A DNA stretch of 64,000 nucleotides from Gimesia fumaroli. Lineage in GTDB: Bacteria > Planctomycetota > Planctomycetia > Planctomycetales > Planctomycetaceae. Shown here in pieces: positions 44,023 to 48,041 of this stretch. The position numbers and the translations under genes were made by a program. Position 1 is the first letter of the stretch; each line of letters starts with the position of its first letter. The stretch spans positions 1,769,501 to 1,833,500 of the forward strand of contig NZ_CP037452.1 in the NCBI RefSeq assembly GCF_007754425.1, read 5' to 3'. Below the pieces are notes generated by a model, which did not search any database, had not been told where the DNA came from, and was given only the letters and a program-made list of their open reading frames with translations.

Positions 44023-44297
44023 GAGAGAAGCAGGCCTCCGTTAACAGAGGAACATTTTTCGGAAGAAAACAGGTGTGCCCTACGATCCTGTTTACCCTGT
44101 CGCGTGTCAGACTTCAACAGAGACGTGAAATTGACGGAAAGTTAAGCAGGTTTTTGGCTTTCAAGTCTCAATGCTTTGACAGCCTTACAGGTCTCCAGTA
44201 AGCTATCAGCCATTCACCTCACGAACATTTCAAGGCGGGAAATCAGTTCAATCCGCATTGGGACGATGTGTGATAAATATCAACCAGAAAACAACTT

Positions 44298-44371
44298 GGG
44301 GCCGTAGCTCAATCGGTTAGAGCAGCAAACTCATAATTTGTTGGTTACAGGTTCGAGTCCTGTCGGCCCTA
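44298..44371 (+). tRNA. tRNA-Met (CAU), elongator type
   Basis: The 74-nt cloverleaf folds with acceptor arms GGGGCCG/CGGCCCT (terminal G-U), D stem GCTC/GAGC, anticodon loop CTCATAA (anticodon CAT) and T arm ACAGG-TTCGAGT-CCTGT. The discriminator is A and CCA is not encoded. The CUCAUAA loop and lack of initiator features fit elongator Met. A tRNA-Ile2 with modified C34 shares this anticodon and cannot be fully excluded. It is the integration site of the element described below. Confidence 0.93.
44355..44370 (+). repeat. left attachment-site core
   Basis: GAGTCCTGTCGGCCCT, the last part of the T arm and 3' acceptor strand of tRNA-Met. Identical to 47476-47491. Confidence 0.85.
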
Positions 44372-44484
44372 TTTACGCAATTCGCACTCTCTCGCATCTC
44401 CTCGCAAGCCTCTGATTCACAATGACTTACATCATTCTCTGCTTTTTCGGTTTGCGAGCCTAATCTAGTGTAAACAGCACTGTA

Positions 44485-44505
44485 CTGCACCGGATTCTGC
44501 ACCGC
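44485..44505 (+). repeat. 21-bp subterminal repeat, left copy
   Basis: It contains two TGCACCG heptamers, each 12 bp apart start to start. It matches 47398-47418 with one mismatch. It overlaps the integrase codons for VQNPVQ. It may be an integrase arm-type site. Confidence 0.6.
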
Positions 44506-44887
44506 TTTTTCGAAGTCCGATTCCCTTACCTGCAAATAACTTTGCAACGCTACATTGGGGGAATTTCCCAGCCAGGCGACCACTGTTTGGATCGGGAGGC
44601 TTTCCGTCAATTCGGTCTCTCTACTTGAGCGTAGGTTCTGAAATGGCTTAGGCCATGGAACGAGACCAGCCCGCTTAATGATCTTGTGAAACGTCGTTCT
44701 CAGGTTCTCGCTTCTGATCCGGTGCTTTGCAATCACATATTCTGAGGGAGTCTCATCTAAAGAGAAGAAGCATTGATCAAGGTACGGTCTGAGTTCAGGG
44801 AAGCTGGCTTTCGGGGATCAGCCTAGCCGCGTGTTATTTGTCTTACAAAACCTGTTTAAGCTGTGTTGTCATCTGAAAGGTGATTCA

Positions 44888-45739
44888 TCAATGATTTGGA
44901 TTCTGCATATCTGAAAGCAGTTTTTCTGTAATCTCTTCTTGCTTCCAATCTTCTTTGGCTGGCCTAAAAAAGATGCTTTTGAACTCCCCTCCTCTGAAAT
45001 TCATATAAAATATTAGATTCCAGCATTGATCATCCATCGACTTAAAATTCAGTGTGCACTGATATTCGCCGTTCAATTCTCCCTTAGTCCAAAAACTCAA
45101 GATACCTTGATTACCCTCTCCTGTCATTTTGTGAAACCGAGGGGTTTCGAAAAATATCTCCTCGCCATAACGCATGAAGATAGCGTCTTTTATGTCCCTC
45201 CCTGCATTCTCATATTTCCAATACCACAGCACCGTGTCTCCAGCTCGCTTTTGTTCTGTGATCTCTTTCTGAATAAAATGAGGTAGCATTGATTTGCGGT
45301 ATTCCGCCTGCTCTATTCTTGAGTTGACTTTCAGTATTTGTAACTGCTCATCCATAATACCGCAGTTCTTCTGGTGTGCTTCACGCGTGAGCTTTAGTTC
45401 CTCCCTGGTATCCTGCAGCTCTTTCCGCTGCAGTGACAATTCATGTCTCTATAGCAAGATCGTGTAAATGATCCCAGCGAAAGCCAGCCCTGAGAACAGG
45501 GTGTTAACCGCACCGAACATATCACCGAATCTGGCCCGCTCTTCTGTGCTGTCGATATACGATATTCCCTGCCACATTACCAAGAATATGAACAACACGA
45601 AGTTAAGTAGTAAAAAAAAGATTCCCCAGCTTAGGCGTTTGTCTTCAAACAGGAACTCATGCCAAGGCTTGACCTCTTTTTTAACTCGACGCTCTCTGGC
45701 GTCTGGATCATCCTGATCTATTTCTACCGGCTCATTCAC
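44888..45739 (-). pseudogene. two-TM coiled-coil protein broken by one TAG
   Basis: The reading frame starts at GTG 45739 (overlapping the LexA-like stop, GTGA) and would encode 283 residues, but codon 97 is TAG at 45449-45451. The same frame continues to 44888 without another stop. Two membrane helices lie at about residues 35-58 and 72-97. A coiled coil (LQRKELQDTREELKLTRE) follows right after the stop, then about 120 residues with a beta-rich pattern. In related membrane proteins the helix runs into LLQRxELxLQREEL, so the stop most simply replaces a Gln codon (CAG to TAG). No frameshift is present, so the loss is recent or the codon is read through. Function unknown; cargo gene of the element. 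Confidence 0.8.
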
Positions 45740-45981
45740 GATACATCCCCGCAGAGCTGAATTCGCAGATTTTCGATTACCTCAATACCTCTTGGCATCG
45801 TCTCCAGTCGCTTCAGATGCCCTTTCTGCTCCAGTGCTTTCAGATGGTCGGCAACGCCGTTGGTGGAACGGATACCGAAAGCAGAGGCGATTTCTCGGAC
45901 TGTGGGTGAGAATCCCGTTTTGGCGCGATAGACACGAATAAAACTCAATATGGTTTGTTGTTTTGCCGTTAATCGTTTCAT
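45736..45981 (-). CDS. LexA-like DNA-binding protein without protease domain
   Basis: From ATG 45981 the product has 81 residues. Residues 1-65 match the LexA N-terminal winged helix (PF01726): LTAKQQTILSFIRVYRA, FSPTVREIASAFGI and NGVADHLKALEQKGHLKR. Full LexA has about 200 residues with a Ser-Lys autoprotease, and nothing of that is present, so it cannot self-cleave in response to RecA. An alternative in-frame ATG at 46086 has a better ribosome site (AAGGAAAT) and would add 35 residues without known similarity. It probably represses element genes. The downstream gene overlaps its stop by four bases. Confidence 0.85.
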   Translation of the reverse strand: MKRLTAKQQTILSFIRVYRAKTGFSPTVREIASAFGIRSTNGVADHLKALEQKGHLKRLETMPRGIEVIENLRIQLCGDVS

Positions 45982-46139
45982 TGGATTGTCTCTTCTGAAA
46001 GGAAAAGATCTGGAGCTGCGAAACTGCAGACCGAGTTCAAATTCTGCCAGACTCCCTGCAGCAGTGCCAGCTTTAAAAGTCGTCATAAGTGCGATTTCCT
46101 TAAGGGGGACAGGCAGGGGGAGTCCCCTGACATATTGCA

Positions 46140-46157
46140 CAACTACTTATATAGTTG
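46140..46157. promoter_or_regulatory. palindrome upstream of the LexA-like gene
   Basis: CAACTA and TAGTTG are perfect 6-bp arms around CTTATA. It lies upstream of both possible starts and between the regulator and the divergent SHD1 gene, a natural place for an autoregulatory operator. Confidence 0.45.
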
Positions 46158-46354
46158 CAGTGATACTCGTAATTTATTGGACATAGCATCTTATATTCGG
46201 GAAGATGGCAACTGCAAACTTGGTGCAAAAAACGTGATACTGAAGAAGTTCAAAATACAAGTTTTTTTTCAGCAACTGCTAAAAAACTACAGATTATCGT
46301 GAGGCATAACCAACTAAGTAAACAGGAATATTCACAAGCCTGAAAGGGAATAGG

Positions 46355-47353
46355 ATGAAAAAGTTTTTGTTGGCAGCAGTTTTGGTGGTATTAGCCTCTG
46401 GGACAAGTTATGGACAGATTCGGGGTGTTCAGGCGGGTAGTGCTGATGCTTTGCAGAGATTGGCTGAACATAGGGCATTGATGAATGCTCAAAGACAAGT
46501 ATCTGGTCAATTATCTGTTTCTGGTTTGAAAGTAGGTGCGAAGGGAGTGCCAACTTTTATAGATGCTAAAGTGATGCAAGTCATTGATGAAAAAAATATG
46601 TTAGTTGGTATCGAAGATTCACGAGTGGGCAAGGGACGGTATTCGACATGGGTTATGTTAAAATGTCCAACCCAAGGAATTACAGATGGTCAGTTTTGGA
46701 GAGGCGGCGGCTGGAAAGATGTAGCAGGTTCAAGTGCCCTTAGTGTTACCGGTACGACTACATACGTGACAGCTATTGGTGCCACAAAAACAGTGCTTGT
46801 TCTCGAACCAATGAGCAAAGAAGAAGCAGATAAACTTGCTGCAGAGGAAGCATTGTATCGAAATTGGAGAATTGGAAAAAATGTACTATCAGGTAAGTTT
46901 ATTGAGCACAAAGGTGGGGATGTTTATATTCAAGAACGGGGAAAAGATAAACCACAAAAAGTCCGATTCAGTGAGCTTAGCATACCTGATCGAAAATGGG
47001 TTCGATCTGAATCGAAACGTCGTAGGATAATTTCACTCAAGAAAAACACCGATAAGAAGTCAGAAAGTGGCCAGAGTAATTCAGAGACACCTGATACCGT
47101 CTTATTAAATTGGCATAATGACACTTACAAGGTTACTGTTCGACAAACTGGTAAAGATTCCTGGGAAGAGGTTCAGGACGCTACAGGTAAGGTTGTATGG
47201 AAATACTCAGAAAAATCCAGAAATAAAGAATTTGTCGAATTGTATTGCCCCAAACGCAAATATGAGGTTCGCCTGCTCAACAAACGCATGGAGTTAAAAA
47301 AAGATGGCAAATGGATATGGGTTGCTGACGGGCATTGGGAATCCAAAGAATAA
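46355..47353 (+). CDS. exported SHD1-like domain protein, element cargo
   Basis: The 332-residue product has a signal peptide (FLLAAVLVVLASGTSYG). A central region at about 175-225 (VLSGKFIEHKGGDVYIQER; VRFSELSIPDRKWVRSE) resembles the SHD1 (Sla1 homology 1) domain that recurs in planctomycete secreted proteins. The C-terminal part (TVLLNWHNDTYKVTVRQTG) is a beta-rich module about 90 residues long, ending in KWIWVADGHW. The ORF uses more A/T-ending codons than its neighbours, supporting acquisition with the element. Function unknown; SHD1 modules are thought to mediate protein contacts. Its ATG at 46355 is preceded by AAGGGAATA. Confidence 0.85.
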   Translation: MKKFLLAAVLVVLASGTSYGQIRGVQAGSADALQRLAEHRALMNAQRQVSGQLSVSGLKVGAKGVPTFIDAKVMQVIDEKNMLVGIEDSRVGKGRYSTWVMLKCPTQGITDGQFWRGGGWKDVAGSSALSVTGTTTYVTAIGATKTVLVLEPMSKEEADKLAAEEALYRNWRIGKNVLSGKFIEHKGGDVYIQERGKDKPQKVRFSELSIPDRKWVRSESKRRRIISLKKNTDKKSESGQSNSETPDTVLLNWHNDTYKVTVRQTGKDSWEEVQDATGKVVWKYSEKSRNKEFVELYCPKRKYEVRLLNKRMELKKDGKWIWVADGHWESKE

Positions 47354-47397
47354 AAGCTGATTTGAAATGCAAGCTAAAAGGACGCCATTGGAATAAA

Positions 47398-47418
47398 CTG
47401 CACCGGATTATGCACCGC
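47398..47418 (+). repeat. 21-bp subterminal repeat, right copy
   Basis: Same heptamer pair as at 44485-44505, with one difference (A for C in the spacer). It lies in non-coding sequence 57 bp inside the right att core, in the same orientation as the left copy. Confidence 0.6.
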
Positions 47419-47475
47419 ATTGATTTTAAGAATCTTGTAAATTACTATCTCTGCTGTGGTTGGGCGAAACACACT

Positions 47476-47491
47476 GAGTCCTGTCGGCCCT
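47476..47491 (+). repeat. right attachment-site core
   Basis: Identical 16-bp copy of the tRNA-Met 3' end, marking the far boundary of the element. Confidence 0.85.
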
Positions 47492-47774
47492 GTTTTTATT
47501 GCTCTGTTTCAGTAGGTCACTTTTATGCCCTTTGTGGGGAGCTGAGATTCGATGCTTCAGTGCATTTGTGGTTGTCAGGTCTCTGGTAATCCGAGATAAT
47601 TGGCTTGCATGAAAAAGACTACAGGCGGGGACTGATGGAAACGGAAGCCGACATCGCGTGAAGGTTGTGTCAATCTGGGTTGTGATTCAAGTCTGGAATG
47701 ATTTCTGGCTGAATCCAACTGAGAACTGCCGGCTGGGGGGGTAAACGCCAGTTTCCTTCACGAGGATGATTGAA

Positions 47775-48041
47775 ATGGGTAAACAAGGGATTGTTGTTCT
47801 AGGAGCTGGACTTCAGGGGACTTGTGTGGCCTTGTCGCTTGCACATCGGGGGTATGCGGTCACGCTGATTGAGTCTCATCCAGCACCATTGCGTGCAGCC
47901 AGTTTACGCAACGAAGGCAAGATTCATTTGGGGTTTGTGTACGCACTTGACCACAGTGGTGCGACGCAACGCAAGATGCTGGAAGCAGCCCTCTGCTTTT
48001 CACCCCTGCTCGATCGATGGTGCGGCGCGCTGCCATGCTGA
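47775..48041 (+). pseudogene. truncated FAD-dependent oxidoreductase
   Basis: Only 88 residues of an FAD-dependent oxidoreductase (DAO-type) N-terminus remain. The Rossmann motif VVLGAGLQGTCVALSLAHRG and the acidic strand end VTLIESH are present, followed by NEGKIHLGFVY. The usual length is about 350-400 residues, and a stop at 48039 ends the frame. The sequence after it shows no continuation in the other forward frames. It lies 280 bases beyond the right att core, so it may have been broken by events linked to the element. Start chosen at ATG 47775; an ATG at 47766 is also in frame. Confidence 0.75.

Follow-up and report, generated by a model that had tools for sequence, protein, structure and literature searches.

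Why should the open reading frame (ORF) of an integrase run on into the very tRNA gene at which its element is inserted? This question is raised by a tRNA-Met gene of Gimesia fumaroli lying in the window analyzed here, a stretch of 64,000 nucleotides (NZ_CP037452.1, positions 1,769,501 to 1,833,500), in which a second copy of the tRNA 3' end lies 3.1 kb away and the tRNA gene contains the end of an integrase remnant. Comparison with related elements suggests that the integrase gene (int) of this family contains its own attachment site (attP), that it is split by integration, and that the C-terminal domain (CTD) thereby cut off favours integration. We regard this overall explanation as fairly probable. 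Its parts differ in strength: the split-gene anatomy of the integrase is indicated with high confidence, whereas a role of the CTD in directionality is a tentative suggestion to which we give slightly less than an even chance.

The core GAGTCCTGTCGGCCCT found at both ends of the window element (within a repeat of 20 nt, 95% identical) has exactly two copies in the genome of 7,704,373 bp when up to one mismatch is allowed, and the reversed pattern, used as a control, has none. Because the core is present at only these two places, a chance origin of the repeat was rejected. The initial annotation of the window, which had noticed the repeated tRNA end and proposed integration into tRNA-Met, is borne out here, as it is in placing the integrase C-terminus within the tRNA, where about 18 codons of the remnant overlap the tRNA gene; its view of the attachment site as serving also for coding was right and extends further, to a CTD that is split off in related elements. 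The remnant alone gave no Pfam match, so that its identity rests on its relatives: it aligns at 77% to residues 266–427 of an intact integrase, the first c. 265 of the 427 residues being gone. A functional integrase of its own was not found in the window element, and a search of this genome for a second integrase of the same family returned the remnant as its sole match.

Reading into the tRNA is common among the relatives of this remnant. A set of 178 non-redundant integrases was collected, 175 of them with the stop codon in view; 124 enter an antisense tRNA gene, 12 stop before it and 39 have no tRNA within 400 nt. Between the end of the catalytic part and the tRNA, the int frame is open in 124 of 136 cases as against 41 and 23 for the other two forward frames, and therefore something keeps this frame open. 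Two intact relatives match PF00589 above the cut-off together with PF13102, and neither gave a match to PF16795 (Phage_integr_3) at E 0.1. One integrase of the family, compared with plasmid and phage collections, had no match at E 1e-15 and 1e-10. In the integrated forms the N-terminal and catalytic parts remain joined.

The continuation of the frame becomes visible when the circular form is simulated by joining the end of int through the core to the sequence that follows the attR core. An attR core of at least 13 bases was found for 31 of the 136 integrases that have an antisense tRNA no more than 400 nt away, and the ORF reaches the core in 28 of these 31 elements. The joined ORF then runs for at least 50 codons past the core in 23 of the 28 when read in the int frame, whereas the other frames give 4 and 5. 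This additional stretch is conserved, beginning with the right-hand copy of an inner repeat (mostly GAESGA, in a frame different from that of the left copy) and continuing as D..L..LI..WP.LS...R..I. Leave-one-out profiles tested against six frames placed their match in the int frame for 26 of 28 elements and in no other frame, L048 and L050 being missed (genomes and loci are given by our own G and L numbers). These 26 comprise 24 real CTDs as well as the window and L049; in the latter two only the repeat-coded stretch is matched, and neither is taken as a CTD. The tRNA 3' end is met in all three codon phases (13, 9 and 4 cases). As for the three integrases that stop before the core, the CTD is in frame in L109 and out of frame in L110, and the out-of-frame match in L056 covers the repeat-coded stretch only.

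A second set consisted of 23 pairs of an integrase and a CTD on the same contig and strand, chosen by eye among the matches listed. The core repeat was found in 21 of these, and in 20 of the 21 the sequence is in frame and stop-free up to the CTD. One pair, from G065, is the L160 locus and is present in both sets. In the two sets together, 44 distinct elements have a CTD and a core-reaching ORF, and the CTD is in frame past the core in 43 of them; the 44 are distinct places and not independent events, because some of them are close relatives (G150/G152, G109/G113). The distance from int to CTD reaches about 71 kb (G019, with cores of 13–14 nt). Since the ORF crosses the core in frame into the CTD in the circle, integration cuts off the integrase's own CTD; as read from the sequences, it separates the CTD codons from int and leaves a short int end that is encoded by the tRNA. 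With the best 37 candidates per genome considered, the CTD profile matches at E 0.001 in at least 112 of 170 family genomes and in at least 51 of 58 genera, and under the same limits it has no match in the genome of the window.

Undivided versions of the gene exist as well. In the viral contigs L236, L239, L240 and L251, int and CTD form one ORF and no tRNA was found in the stretch; the four contigs probably represent three viruses, since the match is the same in L239 and L240, which may come from a single virus. L236 (E 2e-11) and L239 (9e-11) match the CTD strongly, and L251 additionally encodes a large terminase subunit. Furthermore, in a tandem array (L194:236-1150) the outer integrase ORF passes the core into the CTD of its neighbour, forming a natural chimeric gene. 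An AlphaFold2 model of the L236 protein (mean predicted local distance difference test score, pLDDT, 77; predicted template modelling score, pTM, 0.49) has a folded integrase part, an unfolded linker encoded by the attachment site (residues 373–461, pLDDT below 50) and a CTD of two helices (457–472 and 477–492). When the CTD was modelled alone, two helices were again obtained.

The window element carries a second direct repeat just inside its cores (25 nt, 92%), which the initial annotation had not noted and the 18-bp centre of which has only two genomic copies at up to two mismatches, compared with one for the reversed-pattern control. An inner repeat lies at the same positions in the congeneric genomes G005, G006, G008 and G010; in G005 it differs in sequence (GCGCTGCGAAATGCGCTGCAGT), both copies being identical to each other and keeping the same distances from the core. 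Across the 31 elements with an attR core, the best repeat pair is identical over at least 18 nt in 12, and the sequences vary from element to element. When left sites and attR regions were paired at random (100,000 pairings, n = 30, L049 being left out as a near-duplicate of L048), the observed sum of 519 stood against a mean of 318 with a standard deviation of 17 and a maximum of 413. The right repeat begins 39–63 nt from the core in the 25 elements scoring at least 13. Helical phasing of the arm distances was considered and set aside, as one distance cluster dominates such a test.

The N-terminal domain of the integrase is predicted by AlphaFold2 to consist of three strands and one helix, comparable to an AP2-like domain, and Foldseek returned matches to Tn1549 Int, XerA and lambda Int. 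This fold and the matches to Tn1549 and lambda Int fit the reading of the paired repeats as putative arm-type integrase sites. In lambda, attP consists of a core with arm sites on either side. The same layout is mentioned in the available text of a review (PMC8371274). The planctomycete integrases thus resemble the two-site integrases of the lambda type (lambda Int, Tn1549 Int) in their PF00589 catalytic family, in their structural matches and in a core flanked on both sides by paired repeats, which Int would bind. They differ in that the putative arm sites and the core lie in one int reading frame and are followed by an extra domain.

Several observations weigh against the explanation given above. 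The attR core was found for no more than the 31 of 136 integrases of the first set; for the others, the contig or stretch may end first or the core may be shorter. No core was found for the pairs G151 and G082b of the second set, and the CTD is out of frame in G105b and in L110, where int is broken. The CTD match of the undivided gene in L251 is weak (E 3.7e-3), and in the pairing test the own attR outscores all others for no more than 11 of 30 elements. The ratio of nonsynonymous to synonymous polymorphism (pN/pS) of the CTD is modest (0.33–0.73 in four close pairs), and in two of them the shifted frame is as low or about equal; selection on the CTD is seen in motif and frame and only modestly in pN/pS. 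Finally, the tRNA-Met group to which the window belongs is without a CTD, and the CTD is therefore not essential to every element. Past the core, the frame ends after 16 residues in the window, after 11 in G005 and after a single residue in G008 and G010; the repeat-coded stretch beyond this stop in the window is a remnant in the CTD frame.

Some further CTD-like sequences may be mentioned here. L102/L081 (G044:C568) has a CTD-like stretch close behind the integrase in another frame, with no tRNA seen, and is possibly a frameshifted unsplit gene. L213:1569 (E 1.9e-3) and L246:1009 (E 3.2e-2) match the CTD weakly, and each lies a short way downstream of an integrase encoded by the same strand. 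In G105 and G109 there are at least 17 and at least 14 CTD matches, respectively, corresponding to many island or prophage ends per genome.

The tRNA-Met site itself was compared within the genus set of 17 genomes, five of which (G003, G004, G011, G013 and G016) stayed outside the site comparison. Occupied sites with a second core are present in G000, G005, G006, G008 and G010 and, as a tandem array, in G001. Elements at the site measure 14.0 kb in G008, 14.4 kb in G010, 8.6 kb in G005 and 2.9 kb in G006, and intact integrases of 427 residues ending in the tRNA are present in G005, G008 and G010. Empty single-core sites, which the initial annotation had named as support for an insertion, were also found. 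G009 has a single core in the 6 kb examined, with the right-hand gene of the window directly after the tRNA; G007 and G014 have a single core in the 10 kb examined, followed by the same right flank that follows attR in G005 and G006. G002, G012 and G015 have a single core in the stretch examined and were not counted as empty. The tandem array of G001 (L051, L052) contains two exact cores 14.4 kb apart and then a degraded outermost core, which adjoins a right repeat and the right flank known from the window.

The following sequence of events would account for these data. In the circle, the gene would encode in order the N-terminal domain, the catalytic domain, a linker coded by attP (left arm, core, right arm) and the helical CTD. 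Int would bind the arm sites and recombine the core with the 3' end of the tRNA gene, and this recombination would leave the codons of the CTD at the opposite end of the element; the integrated catalytic part would read into the antisense tRNA and stop there. The free element would thus make an Int carrying the CTD, the integrated one an Int with a tRNA-coded tail, a tail that would simply follow from the frame being kept open across the core. The CTD might bias the reaction toward integration, so that its loss would stabilize the inserted state, and excision would then have to await a related integrase or another factor. In its widest form, to which we give an even chance, the proposal would be that a large family of bacterial integrases divides its gene whenever an element integrates, that the conserved CTD exists only in the circle, that losing it commits the element or sets the direction of the reaction, in place of an excisionase or in support of one, and that a single mobile cassette, made up of the int coding sequence (CDS), the core and both arm sites, has been retargeted to many different tRNA genes.

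The main rival accepts the split and turns the role of the CTD around: the domain would restrain or destabilize Int in the manner of a tag, or act on int expression in the circle, and integration would leave a more active or more stable Int for excision. A precedent is the mycobacteriophage repressor, which according to the available text of PMC9635641 loses a C-terminal ssrA-like tag on integration, and the catalytic domain is indeed whole in the integrated form. The CTD is, however, predicted as two folded helices, unlike a short tag, and we hold this reversed role to be possible but rather unlikely. A split would not be needed at all if the CTD were a separate small gene abutting attR, for instance a directionality factor, and if int entered the tRNA merely for want of a stop codon. 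Once an element is inserted, its CTD ORF can run on into the flanking host DNA, as such a gene might. Yet the frame agrees across the core in 43 of 44 elements though the tRNA 3' end occurs in all three phases, the int frame reaches the tRNA without a stop much more often than the other two do, and unsplit ORFs exist in viral contigs; because of the agreement in frame above all, an independent gene is disfavoured and seems highly improbable.

A different doubt concerns the window element, which the initial annotation had taken for a possible compact planctomycete satellite. As a non-autonomous element it would be mobilized in trans by a related integrase, and both cores and both inner repeats do survive in the window; G006, moreover, holds at the same site the 2.9-kb element, which likewise carries an int remnant. 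On the other hand, the genome is without another integrase of this family, one cargo gene is broken, and the attR junction, but not the interior, is common to the window and G001, the interior matching none of the ten other genus stretches with which the cargo was compared. With c. 265 of 427 integrase residues lost, a broken gene and elements of 8.6–14.4 kb at the same site in congeners, the satellite reading is unsupported, and we consider it very unlikely. We take the window element to be a decayed integrative element at tRNA-Met, belonging to a planctomycete family with attP inside int; the CTD and most of int are absent, and the element is stranded.

Self-disrupting recombinases are described as exclusively archaeal in the available text of the review cited above (PMC8371274). 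The SSV-type 'suicidal' integrases treated there likewise have attP inside the integrase gene, which is split on integration, so that the complete gene is in effect the directionality factor (PMC8371274). According to the same text, the split cuts the N-terminal from the catalytic part and leaves both inactive, whereas the planctomycete integrase keeps its catalytic protein whole and loses the CTD. The planctomycete family also differs in its bacterial hosts and in combining PF00589 with PF13102 instead of PF16795. The gene is split in the family as it is in the SSV type; within the group to which the window belongs, the change is confined to a short tail. Integration-dependent immunity of mycobacteriophages is similar in that attP lies within a coding gene, the 3' end of a tRNA gene serves as attB and the protein is altered; there, as far as the available text of PMC9635641 reports, it is a repressor that is cut and arm-type sites are absent, whereas here it is the integrase and paired repeats are present. 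No bacterial self-splitting integrase was found in the literature searched, in which subscription papers were thinly covered. The family would represent a bacterial self-disrupting recombinase of another design, in which the enzyme is edited and not destroyed, and it offers a testable proposal for how immediate re-excision is avoided. In addition, an orphan CTD marks where islands and prophages of these genomes have their distal ends, and the split may explain why some integrase gene models end in tRNA-coded sequence and why small orphan 'WPxL' ORFs occur.

Features of the element in the Gimesia fumaroli window (positions in the window)
Feature	Position	Strand	Remarks
tRNA-Met(CAT)	44297..44372	+	integration target; 3' part is the attL core region; ARAGORN, Rfam RF00005 73.1 bits
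attL core, 16 bp	44355..44370	+	repeat D2
attR core, 16 bp	47476..47491	+	repeat D2; junction common to G001, 94% identity
Integrase remnant	44317..44736	-	ORF; C-terminal c. 162 of 427 residues; antisense end within the tRNA; homology up to 44805
Inner repeat, left copy	44484..44508	-	repeat D1; putative arm-type site within the integrase CDS; codes KAVQNPVQ
Inner repeat, right copy	47397..47421	-	repeat D1; putative arm-type site, noncoding here
Membrane-protein gene, broken	44888..45739	-	same-frame ORFs 45449-45739 and 44888-45439; in-frame stop 45449-45451
Regulator with LexA-type DNA-binding domain	45736..46140	-	PF01726, E 2e-22; no peptidase domain seen
332-aa cargo protein, family unassigned	46355..47353	+	ORF

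The genes enclosed by the cores had been called a LexA-like regulator, a broken membrane gene and an SHD1 cargo gene. The first two descriptions hold, the membrane-protein gene being interrupted by one in-frame stop and giving no Pfam match at 0.001. The third was a resemblance by eye only: a Pfam search relaxed to E 10 did not bring up SHD1 for the 332-residue protein, which also has no other Pfam match above the cut-off and no PADLOC match. Among the cargo ORFs, none matched a Pfam or PADLOC entry for dependence on a helper phage or takeover of its packaging.

Ten proteins from the elements at the same site were picked for a domain search. The G005 element encodes a type ISP restriction-modification protein (L050:9724-14562), the G008 element a TIR-pentapeptide and an AbiTii protein (L048:5555-6661 and L048:13563-14462), and two proteins of the G010 element gave one ParB_N match; the tRNA-Met site may be a slot for defence cargo. 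A gene that looks similar by eye in three of the elements (L048:3209-4360, L049:3508-4608 and L056:13710-14171) is possibly a backbone gene; its copy in G008 (L048:3209-4360) has no Pfam match. To the right of attR, an oxidoreductase-like gene (47766-48041) looks truncated: two parts that adjoin each other in the window are separated by about 1.8 kb more sequence in G001.

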